Of a stretch of 64,000 nucleotides of DNA, positions 25,487 to 33,361 are shown one piece after another; position 1 is the first letter of the stretch; every line of letters starts with the position of its first letter. The position numbers and the translations under genes were made by a program. The stretch comes from Acidimicrobiaceae bacterium (GTDB lineage: Bacteria; Actinomycetota; Acidimicrobiia; Acidimicrobiales; UBA8592), in NCBI GenBank assembly GCA_002720485.1, contig PBIQ01000029.1, forward strand, positions 1 to 64,000, in the 5' to 3' direction. A model generated the notes under the pieces. It was not told the origin of the DNA and searched no databases. It saw nothing but the letters and a program-made list of their open reading frames with translations.

Positions 25487-27160
25487 ATGGCATCTGAATA
25501 TATCTTTACCATGCACAAATGCTCTCGGTTCTATCCACCCGACAGAGACGTCCTGAAAGACATCAGCCTCTCCTTTTTTCCTGGAGCCAAGATAGGTGTT
25601 CTTGGAGCTAATGGCGCTGGAAAGTCATCTCTTCTCAAGATTATGGCCGGTATTGATGATGGATTCAGCGGCGAAGCAAGACTCACTCCCCCATACACGG
25701 TCGGATTTCTCCCGCAGGAACCTGAATTGAGTCCTGAAAAAACGGTTTATGAGAATGTCATAGATGGTGTGGGCGAAGTTGCGGATCTTCTAGCTCGATA
25801 TGACGCCGTTCTTTCCCAGTGGTCTGACCCTGATGCTGATTTTGAAAAACTGGGATCCCTTCAGTCATCTCTAGAGAAGGAAATAGAAGCTGCAGGAGCG
25901 TGGGATCTCCAGCGTCGAATCGAAATAGCGATGGATGCGCTCAGGCTTCCACCTGCGGAAATGAATGTTGATTTCCTATCTGGTGGAGAAAAACGACGAG
26001 TCGCACTTTGTAAGCTACTTCTTCGTCAGCCCGACCTGCTTCTCCTTGATGAACCCACTAACCACCTCGATGCGGAATCAGTTGCTTGGTTGGAGCGGCA
26101 CCTTCAGGAATACGCCGGAACCGTTGTCGCTATAACTCATGACCGATACTTTCTCGATAACGTTGCAGAATGGATTCTCGAACTCGACCGCGGTCGTGGA
26201 ATTCCATACCAGGGGAACTATTCGAGCTGGCTCGAACAAAAAGAGCAACGGCTAGCATCGGAGAAGAACAGAGATACTGCTCGTCAACGTACCTTAGAAC
26301 GCGAATTAGAGTGGGTACGGATGGCCCCAAAAGCAAGGCAAGCAAAGGGGAAAGCACGCTTAGCTGCATATGAGAAGCTCCTAGCTGAATCCAAAGCTGA
26401 AGATCAGAGCGAGCGCGAGCTTCAAATAAACATTCACGCTGATAACCGCTTAGGGGATCAGGTTATCGAAGTGAAGGGACTAACTAAGGGATTTGATGAC
26501 AAGCTCCTGATTGATGATTTGAGTTTCTCTCTTCCTCCAGCCGGTATTGTGGGGATTGTAGGAGCTAACGGAGCTGGAAAAACAACGTTATTTCGGATGA
26601 TTACTGGCGAAGAACGTCCAGATAGCGGAAGTATCATTACTGGTTCATCAGTGGAGCTGGGATACGTTGATCAATCACGTGATGCACTTGATTCTGAAAA
26701 AACCGTCTACGAAGAAATCACCGGAGGCCTCGATAATCTAATTATCGGCAAAAGAGAGATTCATGGGCGCGCTTACACAGCTTCATTTAACTTCAGAGGA
26801 TCGGATCAGCAAAAACTTGTAGGAAGCCTCTCTGGAGGTGAGCGCAATAGAGTCCATCTCGAGAAAATTCTTAAAAGTGGGGCCAACGTTTTGCTCCTTG
26901 ATGAGCCAACAAACGACCTCGATGTAGACACATTAAGAGCTCTGGAAGGCGGTCTTGAAAATTTTGCAGGGTGTGCAGTGATTATCAGTCACGACCGGTG
27001 GTTTCTTGACCGTGTCGCCACCCACGTACTCGCATTTGAGGGCGACTCTTTCGTTAGATGGTTCGAAGGCAATTTCAGCGAATACGAAGCGTTCATTCGC
27101 AAGGAACGCGGTGGAACAAGCCAGCCCACCCGAATAAAGTACAAGCCATTGATCCGTTAG
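25487..27160 (+). CDS. ettA: Energy-dependent translational throttle protein EttA (ABC-F)
   Basis: An ABC-F ATPase that binds the ribosomal E site and gates the first elongation cycle according to ATP level. The 557-residue protein has two ABC cassettes. The first has Walker A GANGAGKSS near residue 42, signature LSGGEKRR and Walker B LLLDEPTNHLD. The second has GANGAGKTT, LSGGERNR and LLLDEPTNDLD. The basic linker with WVRMAPKARQAKGKAR is the EttA-type arm. No membrane segments are present. The length matches EttA. Confidence 0.95.
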   Translation: MASEYIFTMHKCSRFYPPDRDVLKDISLSFFPGAKIGVLGANGAGKSSLLKIMAGIDDGFSGEARLTPPYTVGFLPQEPELSPEKTVYENVIDGVGEVADLLARYDAVLSQWSDPDADFEKLGSLQSSLEKEIEAAGAWDLQRRIEIAMDALRLPPAEMNVDFLSGGEKRRVALCKLLLRQPDLLLLDEPTNHLDAESVAWLERHLQEYAGTVVAITHDRYFLDNVAEWILELDRGRGIPYQGNYSSWLEQKEQRLASEKNRDTARQRTLERELEWVRMAPKARQAKGKARLAAYEKLLAESKAEDQSERELQINIHADNRLGDQVIEVKGLTKGFDDKLLIDDLSFSLPPAGIVGIVGANGAGKTTLFRMITGEERPDSGSIITGSSVELGYVDQSRDALDSEKTVYEEITGGLDNLIIGKREIHGRAYTASFNFRGSDQQKLVGSLSGGERNRVHLEKILKSGANVLLLDEPTNDLDVDTLRALEGGLENFAGCAVIISHDRWFLDRVATHVLAFEGDSFVRWFEGNFSEYEAFIRKERGGTSQPTRIKYKPLIR

Positions 27161-27187: not shown

Positions 27188-27223
27188 AGGTGTAGATTAT
27201 TCTTTAGTTCTCTAGGAGGCAGG

Positions 27224-30200
27224 ATGCGGTTCCGCAGAAAATTACTAGTAGTTGTCCTCTCTATTACTGGGTTGCTGTCTACTGCGTTCGCTGCTCCAAC
27301 ATACGCCTTTCAGGATGGTGAGAATGATGGTCAGTGGTGCATAGAAGAGGGCGGTATCTGGGATGGCACAATGTGCAGCTTCCCGCAAGAGGAATGGGAC
27401 GAAGAGCAGTGGTGCTATGACGAGGGTGGCACGTGGGATGGCACAATGTGCAGCTTCCCTTGGGACGGTGAAGAATGGCAAGATGATGGATCTATCTGGT
27501 CCGCCCCCGACCAAGAATCATGCATTGAACGCGGCGGCGCATGGGCTGATGAAGGTGACTGGGGTTACTGCTACGAAGAATGGCAAGATGATGGATCTAT
27601 CTGGTCCGCCCCCGACCAAGAATCATGCATAGAACGCGGCGGCGCATGGGCTGATGAAGGTGACTGGGGTTGGTGCTATGAAGACGACGGCTCTGCATGG
27701 TCTGCGCGCGATGAAACAACTTGTTTAGAACGTGCCGGCATCTGGGAATCCGATGGCGATTGGGGCTACTGCTATGAGGAATGGGTTCCAGAAGATGATG
27801 GATCTCTTTGGACGGCGCCTGATGAAACAACTTGCATTGAACGCGGCGGCATCTGGGAATCTGATGGTGATTGGGGTTACTGCTATGAGGGATGGCAAGA
27901 TGATGGTTCAATCTGGTCCGCCCCCGACCAAGAATCATGCATAGAACGCGGCGGCATCTGGGAATCCCAAGAAGATTGGGGCTACTGCTGGGAAGACTCG
28001 GGAGAAGCATGGGATGCGCGCGATCAACCAACCTGTGAAGAACGAGGTGGCACTTGGGAGTCGGCCGACCCTCAGGACCCCCAAAACCCTGATGGATGGT
28101 GTATAGCAGAATGGGATGAATCAAACTATCAACCAGCAGGAGAGTATAACGAGGCGTCAGGATGCTGGGTAGAAGCATACGAAGATGGATCCATATTCGA
28201 ATCATGTGATGATGGATCAGGGTCATGGTTTGACCCTGTCACCGGTGAGACTCAAACTTGGTCGCCGGCAATCTATAACGAAGAAACTGGATGCACTACC
28301 CAGACCTACAATGGTTTTTCCGAGACCTGGTGTGACGATGGGACCCAATACTGGGAGGATGAAGATGGTGGCGTAAACATCTCTTCCTATGATGAGGCAA
28401 CTGGCTGTTGGTCAGATATTTTCGCTGATGGTTCTTCAAGCGTTTACTGCGAGGATGGCTTTAGTTCATGGACTGACCCTGATGGGAACACAGAGACGTG
28501 GGCTGCGCCGGAGGTCAACGTCGATCCTGAAACAGGTTGCACTATTGAGATTTATGATGACTGGAGCAACACATGGTGTCCAAATGGGGATTCAAGCTGG
28601 GAAGATGCCGATGGAACACGGGGAACCTACAACGCCCAAACTGGGTGTAGTGAAACGTTTTATCCGGATGGCGGGAGGGACACTTATTGTTCCGATGGCT
28701 CTGGTTCTTATACAAGCGCTGATGGCGAAACTGACACTTGGGGTGAAACCGAGTACGACCCAGAAACGGGTTGTTATACGCAAGTCTATTCTGATGGCGA
28801 ATCAACTTGGTGTGATGACGGTACCAGCATCTGGACCGATGAATTCGGCAACTCAAGCACGTACACTTACGACGAGTCAACAGGCTGTAGTACTGAAATC
28901 TATTCAGATGGGGCGGTATCAACCTGGTGTGAGGATGGTTCTGGCACGTGGCAGGACGCTGATGGCACGATTGAGACTTGGACAGCTCCAGTAGTTACCT
29001 TCGACGAAGCTTCCGGTTGTACTACGGAAGAGTACGACAATGGTGAAGTCTGGACCTGGTGTGAGGATGGGACATATACGTTTGTCGATGCATACGGCAA
29101 TACTGATACCTGGATACCTCCTGAAGAAGAAATTCGCGAAGACGGAGCGCTCGTCCTCACATTTGATGATGGAACGGTTGAAATACAGAACCCTGATGGA
29201 ACTTACCGTGTTACTTGGCCCGATGGTTCTTGGTATGAGGAAGAAATCATGGAAGATGGCTCTCGAGTTGAGCGCTACTCTGATGGGTCGACCTATGTTG
29301 AGTTTGCTGATGGCACTTCCAAGTATACGGACCCCTATGGTGAGACATCTCGAACTGTCGCCATAGGTCAAGGTGATACTGCTGGTTGGCTAACACAATT
29401 TGATGACGGCAGCAGCTATACCGTTTACGACAATGGCCGCGAAAGCTTCACTGACACATCTGGGTTCAGTGTCGAAATTCTTGTTGACCCCGAGACAGGA
29501 GTTAGAACCGAAACTTCCAGTGATGGAACAATCCGAAGAGAAGACCCTGATGGTTCATTCTCAATTATCTATCCCGATGGAACCCGCGACGTTGGTACAT
29601 TTAACCCTGACGGTGATCTTGTAGTCACCTTTGCTGATGGTTCAAATTTAGTGATCCGTAATGATGGGTCTGAAACCTTTCAGGACCCATACGGCGTTAC
29701 CACCATCATTACCCTTGATGGCGAAGGGCGAAGAACTGAAGTTTCTAGCGATGGCTGGACTTCAACGACCTCTGCAGATGGTTCAACTGTTCGAGTTACG
29801 TCTCCTGACGGGTATGTTGAAAACACGGTCTTCTCCGATGATGGTTCGTACATTACTACAGGAAGCGACGGGTCATCAGTTCGATACGATGCCGGAACTC
29901 AGCAAACTACTTTTGTGAACCCAGCTGGAGTGATCGAGATTCTTCGAATAGATCAGGACGGCAATGAAGTCCTCACAAATTCAAACGGGGACATTTACGA
30001 ATACAACCCTCTTTCGAACACATCTTCGTTCATCGACGCTGATGGAAACACGCAAACGAGTGAGCGAACCGAAGATGGAGGGTATATCGTCACCCTCGAA
30101 GATGGAACAGTTGTCGAGCTCGACCCTTCTGGTAAGCCTTTAAACAGCGAGGCTGACATATCAGAAACCGATACGACGTTGGACATAGCATGGGAAAACG

Positions 30201-30565
30201 TAGGTGAATCAGATGACACTATTGAGCGTGTCGAATGGGACAAAGAGACAAACACTCTGGGCACTTGGACGATAGAAGGCAATCTGAGTAGAGAAATAAG
30301 TGTTGAAGACGATGGCTCTGTGATAGTCGAAGTTGATGGGCAAACGATCGAATATGATCCTGCCACTGGAGTCACCGGTGTTAATGAGATTTTCTACGAG
30401 CTCGGTGAAACGATTATTACTACTTCGGGACCTGGATCTGCAACGATCTCCGAAGACGGGGCGACCTTCACTGTCGACTACGACGGAATAAACGCCACGG
30501 CGGTGGCAGGGGCAACGGGAGTCACCGTTGAAATTGATGGGGAAATCTATGAATTCTCCTACTAG
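27224..30565 (+). CDS. Large secreted cysteine- and tryptophan-rich repeat protein
   Basis: An 1113-residue, strongly acidic exported protein with AGGAGG seven bases before the ATG. Residues 1-28 form a Sec signal peptide (RFRRK, hydrophobic core, APTYA cleavage site). Region A (about 38-305) has eight units, each with one cysteine pair; five read C-[IL]-E-R-x-G-x-W then C-Y or C-W, with C-x15-C spacing. Region B (about 314-635) has eight units with TGC, YxDG and TWCxDG motifs and C-x12/13-C spacing. Region C (about 638-1113) has no cysteine and is built of short DG hairpins such as PDGSW and DPYG, reminiscent of Tcp10-C/G-box repeats. No sorting signal or membrane anchor is visible. The even cysteine counts suggest one disulfide per unit. 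Function unknown; an extracellular matrix or adhesive fibre is inference. Confidence 0.88.
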   Translation: MRFRRKLLVVVLSITGLLSTAFAAPTYAFQDGENDGQWCIEEGGIWDGTMCSFPQEEWDEEQWCYDEGGTWDGTMCSFPWDGEEWQDDGSIWSAPDQESCIERGGAWADEGDWGYCYEEWQDDGSIWSAPDQESCIERGGAWADEGDWGWCYEDDGSAWSARDETTCLERAGIWESDGDWGYCYEEWVPEDDGSLWTAPDETTCIERGGIWESDGDWGYCYEGWQDDGSIWSAPDQESCIERGGIWESQEDWGYCWEDSGEAWDARDQPTCEERGGTWESADPQDPQNPDGWCIAEWDESNYQPAGEYNEASGCWVEAYEDGSIFESCDDGSGSWFDPVTGETQTWSPAIYNEETGCTTQTYNGFSETWCDDGTQYWEDEDGGVNISSYDEATGCWSDIFADGSSSVYCEDGFSSWTDPDGNTETWAAPEVNVDPETGCTIEIYDDWSNTWCPNGDSSWEDADGTRGTYNAQTGCSETFYPDGGRDTYCSDGSGSYTSADGETDTWGETEYDPETGCYTQVYSDGESTWCDDGTSIWTDEFGNSSTYTYDESTGCSTEIYSDGAVSTWCEDGSGTWQDADGTIETWTAPVVTFDEASGCTTEEYDNGEVWTWCEDGTYTFVDAYGNTDTWIPPEEEIREDGALVLTFDDGTVEIQNPDGTYRVTWPDGSWYEEEIMEDGSRVERYSDGSTYVEFADGTSKYTDPYGETSRTVAIGQGDTAGWLTQFDDGSSYTVYDNGRESFTDTSGFSVEILVDPETGVRTETSSDGTIRREDPDGSFSIIYPDGTRDVGTFNPDGDLVVTFADGSNLVIRNDGSETFQDPYGVTTIITLDGEGRRTEVSSDGWTSTTSADGSTVRVTSPDGYVENTVFSDDGSYITTGSDGSSVRYDAGTQQTTFVNPAGVIEILRIDQDGNEVLTNSNGDIYEYNPLSNTSSFIDADGNTQTSERTEDGGYIVTLEDGTVVELDPSGKPLNSEADISETDTTLDIAWENVGESDDTIERVEWDKETNTLGTWTIEGNLSREISVEDDGSVIVEVDGQTIEYDPATGVTGVNEIFYELGETIITTSGPGSATISEDGATFTVDYDGINATAVAGATGVTVEIDGEIYEFSY
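27476..27685 (+). repeat. Tandem 105-base near-identical coding repeat
   Basis: Two adjacent 105-base units (27476-27580 and 27581-27685) differ at only a few positions and encode 35-residue copies of the region A unit. A partial third copy begins at 27893. The near identity at DNA level points to recent duplication or ongoing recombination, and assemblies may miscount the copies. Confidence 0.85.
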
Positions 30566-31193
30566 AACCAGAATTATCAGGCCAGAAAAAAAACTCTCTC
30601 CTTTAAGGATGCTCGGTATTTTCACTGTGTCGTGCATGCTTTTTGTAGGTGCATGTGGAGGTGGAGGCGAAGAAAAAACTAGCTCAAGCGCCGACAGTTC
30701 CTCTACGAGCGCCGTAGACGATGGGGGAAGCAGTGGAAAGAACCAAGGCAGCGGAACCTCCAATGGAGGGGATTGTGTTCTTGAAGTCAACGCAGACTGT
30801 AGCGGAGCGGACCTTTCTGGCCAAGACTTATCAGCAGTAATCGCCCCCGGTGTCAACCTCCGAGGCGCAAATCTTAGTGGAGCAATTCTCGATGGCGCCC
30901 TCTTGGTTGGAGCGAAATTAACCGGAGCTGACCTTAGCGGGGTTTCTCTCGCACACGCTAACTTATCCGCTGCAATCCTGGCTCAAATTCGTGCACCTGC
31001 AGCGGTATTCTTTGAAACAAACCTCACACATGCAGACCTAACGCAAGCCGACTTAAACACTGCGGTAATGATAGGGACAAAACTTAACTCCGCGAACCTT
31101 ACAGGGGCATCCGTTGAAGGTTTAATTGATCGACGAACAGAAAAATGCGGAACCATTTGGGTCGATGGATCACTTGATAACTCAGGTTGTTAA
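30549..31193 (+). CDS. Pentapeptide-repeat lipoprotein
   Basis: A 214-residue protein starting at an ATG that overlaps the end of the repeat-protein gene by 17 bases. After a basic N-terminus comes a hydrophobic stretch and the lipobox FVGAC, so the mature protein should be a diacylated lipoprotein from that cysteine. A Ser/Gly linker follows. Then come about fifteen pentapeptide repeats (ADLSG, ANLSG, AKLTG, AHANL type), which fold as a right-handed quadrilateral beta helix. A C-terminal pair of cysteines may cap it. The overlap suggests co-translation with the giant protein; membrane anchoring of a shared complex is inference. Confidence 0.86.
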   Translation: MNSPTRTRIIRPEKKLSPLRMLGIFTVSCMLFVGACGGGGEEKTSSSADSSSTSAVDDGGSSGKNQGSGTSNGGDCVLEVNADCSGADLSGQDLSAVIAPGVNLRGANLSGAILDGALLVGAKLTGADLSGVSLAHANLSAAILAQIRAPAAVFFETNLTHADLTQADLNTAVMIGTKLNSANLTGASVEGLIDRRTEKCGTIWVDGSLDNSGC

Positions 31194-31259: not shown

Positions 31260-32624
31260 ATGCGACATATCGCACTTTTCATAGCTAAGGCGGCGGGAAC
31301 AATCTCCCGCATTCTTAGACGAGGAGGAGGAACTTCCCTCCCCGGAATGATCTTGATGAAGATGCGGCCTACGATGCTACGTGAAATGGCACAAGATCTC
31401 GAAGACGGCGTAATCGTCATCTCAGCAACGAACGGGAAAACAACCACGGCCCGCATGGTGGCAAATGCTATTCAAGAGTCTGAAACCTCATATGTGGCTA
31501 ACACATCCGGAGCGAACCTAGCAAGTGGAATAGCCACAGCCCTACTGGCCAAAAAGCCTGAAGACAGACTCGGGATTTTCGAAGTTGACGAGGCCGCACT
31601 TCCGACTCTCATCCCCGAATTACAACCATCGGTTATTGTCTTAATGAACCTTTTCCGCGACCAACTTGACCGATACGGAGAACTGGAATCAACCATTCAA
31701 AAATGGAAAGACATGATTCAGTCTCTTCCAGAAACAACGAAACTCATTGTCAATGCTGATGACCCTGCGCTCGGCTTTCTCGGCTCACAACATTCGAATG
31801 TAGAGTTCTTTGGAATAGAACAAAACCAATATGGAAGTGTTATCTTACCGCATGCCGCCGATTCCATACATTGCCAAAAATGTGACAGCGCTCTTCAATT
31901 CCAACAAACCACCATAGGCCACCTAGGACACTGGAGCTGCCAAAACTGTGGAGAGCAAAGACCTCAACCAACATTTACCGGAACCAATATCAATCTGAAC
32001 GAACTCAACGGGTCTGAATTCTCCGTAGTTTCCAAATCGAATTCAATAGATTTAGAGGTTCCGCTCGCTGGGCTTCACAACGTATACAATGCGCTCGCTG
32101 CTTTCTCAATATGTTCTGCGAGCGGCATCAAAAGTAGCAACATACAAAAAGGCTTATCGACGCTTTCTGCTGCTTTCGGAAGAAATGAAATAATTACTTA
32201 CGCAGGAACCGAAATGATGCTCTTACTTGCAAAGAATCCTGCTGGCGCCAACCAGAACCTCCAAACGCTTCTCCTAACGGAAGAAAAAATTGATTTAGTT
32301 ATTTCCCTAAATGACAGAACTGCAGATGGAAAAGATATTAGTTGGATTTGGGACGTCGATTACGATATGATATTCGATCGAATAGCCACCCTTACCATCA
32401 GCGGCGATCGGGCTTATGACCTTGCTCTTCGTTTCTATTACTCGGACTTCCCTACTTCGAACATGCATATAGTTCCATCTGTAGAGGGCCTTCTGAATCA
32501 TTTAAAAGACTCGTGCGAAAGCTTACAGAGGGTCGTGATACTCCCGACATATACGGCGATGCTCGATTTACGTTCCCAACTAAACAAAGTTGGGGCAACT
32601 CATTCTTTTTGGGAGGAACAATGA
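31260..32624 (+). CDS. murT: Lipid II isoglutaminyl synthase, MurT subunit
   Basis: With GatD, MurT amidates the D-glutamate of lipid II to D-isoglutamine using ATP and glutamine. The 454-residue Mur-ligase-fold protein has the P-loop SATNGKTTT near residue 55. An inserted zinc ribbon (CQKC and CQNC, about 204-228) is diagnostic of MurT. The C-terminal DUF1727 domain includes LLAKNPAGANQ, which carries the conserved region contacting GatD. Its TGA overlaps the gatD ATG. The length is normal. Confidence 0.95.
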   Translation: MRHIALFIAKAAGTISRILRRGGGTSLPGMILMKMRPTMLREMAQDLEDGVIVISATNGKTTTARMVANAIQESETSYVANTSGANLASGIATALLAKKPEDRLGIFEVDEAALPTLIPELQPSVIVLMNLFRDQLDRYGELESTIQKWKDMIQSLPETTKLIVNADDPALGFLGSQHSNVEFFGIEQNQYGSVILPHAADSIHCQKCDSALQFQQTTIGHLGHWSCQNCGEQRPQPTFTGTNINLNELNGSEFSVVSKSNSIDLEVPLAGLHNVYNALAAFSICSASGIKSSNIQKGLSTLSAAFGRNEIITYAGTEMMLLLAKNPAGANQNLQTLLLTEEKIDLVISLNDRTADGKDISWIWDVDYDMIFDRIATLTISGDRAYDLALRFYYSDFPTSNMHIVPSVEGLLNHLKDSCESLQRVVILPTYTAMLDLRSQLNKVGATHSFWEEQ

Positions 32625-33361
32625 CAGAAATACGTATCTGCCACCTCTACCCGAAGGAAATGAATATTTACGGAGACCGCGGTAATATCGCCGTTTTGCA
32701 GAAACGACTTGAACGTCGAGGATACTCATCATCGGTAACTCCTATAGGGGCTGGTGAAGACTTCAACCCAAGTATTTTCGACCTCTGCTATCTCGGAGGC
32801 GGCCAAGATCGAGATCAAATAATAGTGGCACATGATCTACAAAAAAAGTCTGCAGCATTACGCTCTGGCGCTGAAGACGGAATGGTTTTTCTATGGGTCT
32901 GCGGTGGGATACAACTTGCTGGTGAAGGGTACACAGACTCAGACGGCCGGAGGATTCCAGGCGTCGGGATTCTTGATTTAGATACTTCTGCTGGAAATAG
33001 AAGACTCATTGGAGATCTAGTACTGAATGCGGAACTCGACGGCGAAACCTCTACCCTTGTCGGCTATGAGAACCATGCAGGGAGAACTTTTCTAGGCCCT
33101 GATGCCACCCCATTAGGTTCCGTACTTAAGGGGTATGGAAATAATGGCGCTGATCAAACCGAAGGAGCAGTTCAAGAAAGGGTGATTGGCACATACATGC
33201 ATGGACCTATTTTGCCAAAAAACCCTTGGCTAGCAGACAAACTTCTTACATGGGCGATTGAGCATAACACGGGGGGAATTCCCGCTCTGAGCCCCTTGGA
33301 TGACTCCTTAGAAAATCTCGCACAGCAAGTGGCAATATCACGCGCTGGCGTGAAACGATAG
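32621..33361 (+). CDS. gatD: Lipid II isoglutaminyl synthase, glutaminase subunit GatD
   Basis: A class I glutamine amidotransferase that supplies ammonia to MurT. The start at 32621 is set by GGGAGGAACA just upstream and the ATGA overlap with murT, giving 246 residues. The catalytic cysteine is C94 in WVCGGIQLAG and the histidine is H194 in YMHGPILPK, matching the C94/H189 dyad described for Staphylococcus GatD. As in that family, no obvious third triad residue follows the histidine. It forms a two-gene operon with murT. Confidence 0.95.
   Translation: MTEIRICHLYPKEMNIYGDRGNIAVLQKRLERRGYSSSVTPIGAGEDFNPSIFDLCYLGGGQDRDQIIVAHDLQKKSAALRSGAEDGMVFLWVCGGIQLAGEGYTDSDGRRIPGVGILDLDTSAGNRRLIGDLVLNAELDGETSTLVGYENHAGRTFLGPDATPLGSVLKGYGNNGADQTEGAVQERVIGTYMHGPILPKNPWLADKLLTWAIEHNTGGIPALSPLDDSLENLAQQVAISRAGVKR

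Follow-up and report, generated by a model that had tools for sequence, protein, structure and literature searches.

A giant exported DG-hairpin protein and its pentapeptide-repeat lipoprotein: a candidate two-component surface fiber in Acidimicrobiales

We propose that a giant gene and the lipoprotein gene overlapping its 3′ end, both carried on a 64,000-nucleotide stretch of DNA (the window), encode a tethered cell-surface fiber or stalk, in which a disulfide-stapled single-layer beta-sheet would be held or assembled by the lipoprotein; we put the probability of this reading at about 0.5. The giant would be exported as a very long single-layer antiparallel beta-sheet made from DG-turn hairpins, as in the TCP domain of CPAP. 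In its DG-Cys part, each Cys-bearing hairpin would be stapled by one cross-strand disulfide, and its N-terminal array would consist of small Trp/Cys disulfide units. The lipoprotein would be made together with the giant, and its lipidated N terminus, low-complexity linker, and rigid pentapeptide helix would keep the giant in place, or nucleate it, on the external side of the membrane. The resulting fiber or stalk would contact the outside, either in adhesion or as a layer seen by phages and grazers. The observations behind this proposal are the anatomy of the sequence, its conservation, the gene pairing, the presence and absence of the genes across genomes, and conflicting trees.

The giant gene (positions 27224 to 30565, forward strand) starts with ATG and encodes 1,113 amino acids; a ribosome binding site, AGGAGG (27214 to 27219, forward), lies 4 nt upstream of the start codon, and a scan for promoters in this region found none that exceeded chance expectation. 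The protein has 254 acidic versus 36 basic residues, 59 DG dipeptides, and no His. It begins with a Sec-type signal peptide (amino acids 1 to 28; 27224 to 27307, forward), MRFRRKLLVVVLSITGLLSTAFAAPTYA, which is the only strong hydrophobic stretch and is probably cleaved at APTYA/FQ. Eight Trp/Cys units follow (amino acids 39 to 293; 27338 to 28102, forward), delimited by Cys spacing, a DNA repeat scan, and the structure model. These units, two short and six longer, share the pattern C-x3-GG-x-W ... C, and in the DNA the array is a tandem duplication, part of it with a 105-bp period and 75% matches. Next come eight DG-Cys hairpin units (amino acids 314 to 613; 28163 to 29062, forward), recognized from Cys spacing and the model. 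Their unit-to-unit spacing, taken from the Cys positions, alternates (43, 38, 44, 36, 42, 38, and 44 residues), so that they constitute four super-repeats of about 80 residues. The protein is completed by a Cys-free, Tcp10_C-like DG strand-turn region (amino acids 636 to 980; 29129 to 30163, forward), placed by Pfam and PDB matches and the model, and by a C-terminal region (amino acids 981 to 1113; 30164 to 30562, forward) that is beta-rich in a low-confidence model and gave no family match above cut-off. The 32 Cys residues form 16 close pairs, with within-pair spacings of 12, 12, 16, 16, 16, 16, 16, and 22 in the Trp/Cys part and of 13 or 14 in the eight pairs of the DG-Cys part; the last Cys is at amino acid 613. 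The original prediction had described a signal peptide, eight Trp/Cys repeats, eight further Cys-pair repeats, and a long Cys-free DG region, with sixteen paired-cysteine units in all, and the open reading frame and Cys positions bear out both the layout and the count. Besides the signal, the window protein has no membrane-length hydrophobic stretch, no transmembrane segment, and no hydrophobic C terminus. A pattern search found no LPxTG sorting motif in 19 family members, and no covalent-attachment sorting signal was seen in the giant.

As judged from sequence, Tcp10_C and the TCP domain of CPAP/SAS-4 are the sole credible relatives of the DG part. The whole giant matched Tcp10_C (PF07202) in Pfam at 36.9 bits, against a curated cut-off of 36, and 7/7 family members matched it at an E value of 0.01 or better. 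CPAP/SAS-4 was matched in the PDB with an E value of 9.6e-7 for the single sequence and 8.8e-9 for a profile. Together with the predicted strand pattern, these matches uphold the likeness to Tcp10-C/G-box domains suggested in the original prediction. In the solved TCP domain of CPAP, about 20 strands and their PDG turns make up a single-layer sheet with water on both faces, and the domain is mainly monomeric (PMC3776556), so the fold alone does not imply fiber formation.

Structure prediction by region, a check named at the outset, yielded an AlphaFold model of an 817-residue core, built from a seven-sequence alignment, with 84 consecutive short strands at a period of 9 to 10 residues; the Cys-free DG region has about 37 strands of this period in the model. 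The pLDDT was 75 overall and 83 to 90 across most of the DG region, and the pTM was only 0.32. Fold matches of the core model were Rhs shells, teneurins, and CPAP, with TM scores of <0.35 for all those listed and of 0.28 to 0.34 of the target for CPAP. With this pTM and these low TM scores, the local strand pattern predicted for the giant is believable, and its overall shape is not fixed by the model. The Trp/Cys part was modeled as a short helix plus a hairpin in most units, but with a pLDDT of only 55, and a sequence search of this part against the PDB gave DTX1 as its sole match (E value of 0.07). NCBIfam returned only a MiiA motif, under its cut-off, and the best PHROGs match had an E value of 0.035. 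The libraries searched held no named family for an exported, stapled, lipoprotein-paired form, and paper searches gave no description of one. It had been claimed earlier that no characterized bacterial protein has this layout, with placement of all regions in a known, functionally defined family as what would speak against the claim; no search placed them in such a family.

The Cys pairs were examined in the same core model, where 7/8 are predicted to lie exactly opposite each other across a single hairpin and the remaining pair misses by one residue, compared with about 4% of random residue pairs of like spacing. The facing pairs sit at the open ends of hairpins in the model. A relative (G017, locus L026) has two extra Cys residues in an otherwise Cys-free region, and this pair also faces exactly in the model. 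All 16 core Cys residues are invariant wherever the DG-Cys region is present, and the Cys count was even in all eight complete Cys-bearing members (32, 30, 42, 44, 54, 64, 66, and 26) when only residues from the probable start onward were counted (for G691 this excluded one Cys that precedes the probable start MRTRRKL). The facing geometry and the even numbers support disulfides, in line with the disulfide pinning proposed in the original prediction, and cross-strand disulfides probably staple the DG-Cys hairpins, one per Cys-bearing hairpin. Counting against the stapled reading, no known oxidation route was found: VKOR was detected in none of 18 genus genomes, most of them incomplete, and in none of 12 genomes of the family f120, and Thioredoxin_4 (DsbA-like) was detected in none of the 18 genus genomes, while both searches were positive in control genomes. 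The search for oxidants covered these two families. In the actinobacteria studied to date, exported proteins are oxidized by DsbA-type enzymes and VKOR (PMC12421883 and PMC11208910). Exported proteins containing as many as 66 Cys residues are encoded in the genomes of the genus and of f120 in which VKOR was not found.

A whole-protein search found the giant only in the window's genus, where nine relatives besides the window's genome have at least a trace of it, one as a contig-end fragment only. The genus records are Acidimicrobiales metagenome-assembled genomes and one single-cell genome, and their isolate names point to a marine source. A genus-only family was overturned by a core profile search of 397 genomes of the order, which was positive in 8 genomes of the genus and in 12 of f120, the latter all over 90% complete; the phylogenetic spread, which the original prediction had left for checking, is the window's genus plus four genera of f120. 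In phylum-wide samples the core recovered just one Rhs-like and one PDG-rich protein, neither a convincing relative, and the Trp/Cys array gave zero matches. No match to the giant was found in a phage collection by tblastn, and none of 11 pattern matches of the core profile in viral contigs was confirmed.

Core identity in seven relatives was 65 to 79%. The number of Trp/Cys units varies (8, 7, 12, and 13 in four complete genus proteins), and that of DG-Cys units is constant at eight within the genus. Both kinds of unit are present in the f120 genus g283, while g309 lacks Trp/Cys units and its complete proteins have 27 to 33 Cys pairs. Array regularity was greatest in L099 (G691:C39) and L101 (G707:C19), with 32 to 33 DG-Cys pairs; the G707 giant has 33 pairs, all spaced 14 residues. 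A DPWGL motif occurs only in two g309 paralogues. In the genera g347 and g358 (L103 to L109), the DG region follows a long Gly/Pro/Glu-rich N terminus and the protein is essentially Cys-free. Since relatives without Cys exist, Cys is optional in the family and not part of its core, and the idea that Cys residues define the family was dropped; the DG sheet is its lasting element, and Cys is one way of equipping the sheet. The earlier Cys-centered view was correct in that the pairs are real, and it missed the Cys-free relatives. Some assemblies have split or frame-shifted giant genes (L102, 1516 to 6753; L097, 1 to 5454), possibly through assembly errors in repeats, and in several genus genomes the giant gene is cut off by a contig end.

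The partner gene (30549 to 31193, forward), identified from Pfam, a lipobox pattern, and a 17-locus comparison, overlaps from its ATG the final 17 nt of the giant gene, including the stop codon. Its product, a pentapeptide-repeat protein of 214 residues, has a lipobox (VGAC), a Ser/Gly-rich low-complexity linker, a pentapeptide helix, and the C-terminal sequence CGTIWxDGSLxNxxC. Its tandem A(D/N)LXX repeats matched PF00805 with an E value of 1.2e-30 (105 bits against a cut-off of 20.2), and its scores against models for Qnr, MfpA, and HetL were far under the cut-offs. A simple pattern search found the lipobox (V/L/A)(G/A/S)AC-G in 17/17 partners, and lipidation at the lipobox Cys is predicted from this sequence. 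In 17 loci, representing five genera and two families, the partner lies immediately 3′ of the giant, and a possible start codon for it is no more than about 17 nt from the giant stop. Its Cys and the C-terminal C-x-TI...N..C motif are conserved in all 17 loci, the linker is often long, and the partner accompanies the giant even where the giant has no Cys. The genomic sites of the pair in f120 differ from the window's site: in g358 (L107 to L109) the pair is just upstream of rpsB-tsf-pyrH-frr, and the g309 loci adjoin an AMP-ligase-like gene. Because the pair is found at different sites, the pairing is more than a shared neighborhood. The lipoprotein may anchor the giant at the membrane. Within the genus, no second close partner copy was found outside the cassette. 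At g309 loci B and C (L097, L098, L099, and L101), no lipoprotein is adjacent to the giant, and in G458 (L095) a giant and a lipoprotein are followed by a second giant without its own lipoprotein, a three-gene arrangement; this second giant (L095, 3725 to 7063) carries 26 Cys residues and a signal peptide of its own. The original prediction had treated the giant alone; its anatomy stands, and it overlooked the two-gene unit with a co-conserved lipoprotein.

In the window, the cassette is flanked upstream by an ABC-F ATPase gene (EttA-like; 25487 to 27160, forward), which stands beside murT in cassette-less genomes, and downstream by murT, encoding a lipid II amidation ligase (31260 to 32624, forward), and then gatD. 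The MurT-GatD pair adjoining the cassette spans 31260 to 33361. Eight genomes of the genus have both giant and lipoprotein, and seven have an empty ettA-murT junction, in which only 99 to 115 nt separate the ABC-F gene from murT. The 40-odd bases before murT in the empty genomes resemble those behind the cassette of G015, and in flank-gene trees G015 groups with the empty genomes. The G015 giant is closest to that of the window (79% identity, versus 65 to 66% for the window versus G001 or G017). The MurT grouping was rejected by the core alignment (p of 0.008) and the core groupings by the MurT alignment (p of 0.002 and 5e-5), all values that are optimistic because the groups were chosen after the trees had been seen. 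Between G000 and G015, protein identity is 79% in the core versus 49% in MurT, a difference that suggests exchange, and 64% of 4-fold sites in the core are different; these sites are near saturation yet the protein is conserved, indicating that the giant family is not due to chance. Between G017 and the G003 group, 4-fold differences are 35 to 39% in MurT and 71 to 74% in the core. The conflict between cassette and flank trees indicates that alleles were exchanged, and by these comparisons the cassette has been gained or lost, and recombination has replaced it. A recent G000-G015 cassette transfer was considered and rejected because the 4-fold difference of 0.64 is near saturation; any exchange is old. 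The original prediction was correct for its single locus as far as it went, and missed both the presence/absence pattern and the allele exchange. The MurT proteins of G006 and G011 have 89% amino acid identity but only 4.5% of 4-fold sites different, a far larger difference in protein than at synonymous sites that points to a local frameshift in one of the assemblies.

Other readings of the sheet and its Cys pairs were weighed against the stapled fiber. The DG strands could coil into a cocoon around a C-terminal effector, as in an Rhs/YD-type shell or polymorphic toxin, and the top fold matches by E value were indeed teneurin-like or Rhs cores (9ifo, 8.8e-14; 7q97, 9.2e-14). Matches of this type, however, had TM scores of 0.2 or lower and an rmsd near 30 Å, and we give the cocoon scarcely any credence: no RHS repeat (PF05593) was among the Pfam matches, searched to an E value of 1 for the window protein and 0.01 for the members, simple patterns did not find the core self-cleavage motif in the window protein, the C terminus is conserved within the genus and not swapped, and the neighboring gene encodes a lipoprotein. 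It is somewhat easier, though still improbable, to see several beta-propellers in a row, whose blades would be 40-residue, four-strand units closed by disulfides. The DG-Cys units do have about 40 amino acids and about four strands, and the designed propellers Cake6 and Cake5 matched the profile (E values of 5.2e-9 and 1.6e-7), but the Cake matches fall in the Cys-free DG region, the site of the PDG turns, propeller-like targets superpose poorly (Cake10, TM of 0.13 of the target), and 33 evenly spaced pairs in G707, with freely varying counts elsewhere, misfit closed rings. Binding of a metal or cofactor by the paired Cys, in place of bonding to each other, would agree with the failure to find a VKOR or Thioredoxin_4 oxidant in the genus genomes, or VKOR in f120. 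We nevertheless think it very improbable given the modeled facing of the pairs at hairpin open ends, the lack of His in the window protein, and Cys counts that are always even.

A less easily dismissed alternative, though an unlikely one, concerns tethering: the giant could be a released extracellular matrix or decoy protein, and the lipoprotein a folding or secretion helper and not an anchor. The giant has no covalent anchor, some giant copies have no adjacent lipoprotein, and coupled translation suits a chaperone as much as an anchor; the linker of the lipoprotein and its C-terminal Cys motif, conserved in 17 loci, are however suited to reaching from the membrane. In favor of the tethered fiber or stalk, the long acidic exported sheet, its lipoprotein partner, the differing repeat numbers, and the swapping of alleles at one fixed site all fit an exposed surface structure, and from this we infer the surface location and ecological role of the giant.

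We tentatively suggest, as a bolder claim that may well not hold, a new two-component fiber, in which a giant single-layer sheet exoprotein, its hairpins stapled by as many as 33 disulfides at even spacing, and a dedicated pentapeptide lipoprotein that assembles or tethers it would be encoded as one cassette exchanged among marine Acidimicrobiales lineages. The type of fold has a eukaryotic precedent and the partner comes from a known repeat family; what appears new is the exported, stapled, lipoprotein-paired form, and there is a fair chance that the two proteins are a new kind of surface system. If the fiber reading is right, an open single-layer beta-sheet of the kind seen elsewhere in the centriole protein CPAP would be used outside bacterial cells, a ladder of cross-strand disulfides would replace a hydrophobic core as stabilizer, and pentapeptide-repeat lipoproteins would gain a surface role as tether or assembly partner. 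That uncultured marine actinobacteria gain, lose, and exchange the cassette points to an exposed structure selected on by other organisms, and the 38- to 41-residue stapled hairpin would offer a simple, regular unit for protein engineering.

Among known systems, the CPAP/SAS-4 TCP domain (PF07202, G-box) resembles the giant in its DG/PDG-turn hairpins and, going by the model of the giant, in its short consecutive strands. It is eukaryotic and centriolar, has about 20 strands, and binds STIL, whereas the giant is exported, is paired with a lipoprotein, and combines rows of Cys pairs with about 84 strands predicted for its modeled core. Long runs of short antiparallel strands, as predicted for the giant, are also a feature of Rhs/YD-repeat shells and teneurins; unlike them, the giant has no RHS repeats, the window protein lacks the core motif, and no toxin was found. 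AAWKG family proteins of Streptomyces plasmids are long, DG-rich, and actinobacterial, with a weak tblastn match of 25 to 31% identity, but they lie beside a type VII secretion-associated gene, with no pentapeptide lipoprotein annotated there. One AAWKG protein, DG-rich and encoded on a Streptomyces scopuliridis plasmid (L094, 596 to 4048), also adjoins a huge lonely Cys domain protein. Giant exported proteins of marine Synechococcus such as SwmB (PMC4949707) are also very large and lineage-specific, and a likeness in role to the giant is no more than a suggestion. The partner, finally, is a clear member of the pentapeptide-repeat proteins (PF00805), and it differs from the others in that it is a lipoprotein, has a low-complexity linker, carries a Cys motif at its C terminus, and is encoded beside a DG giant.
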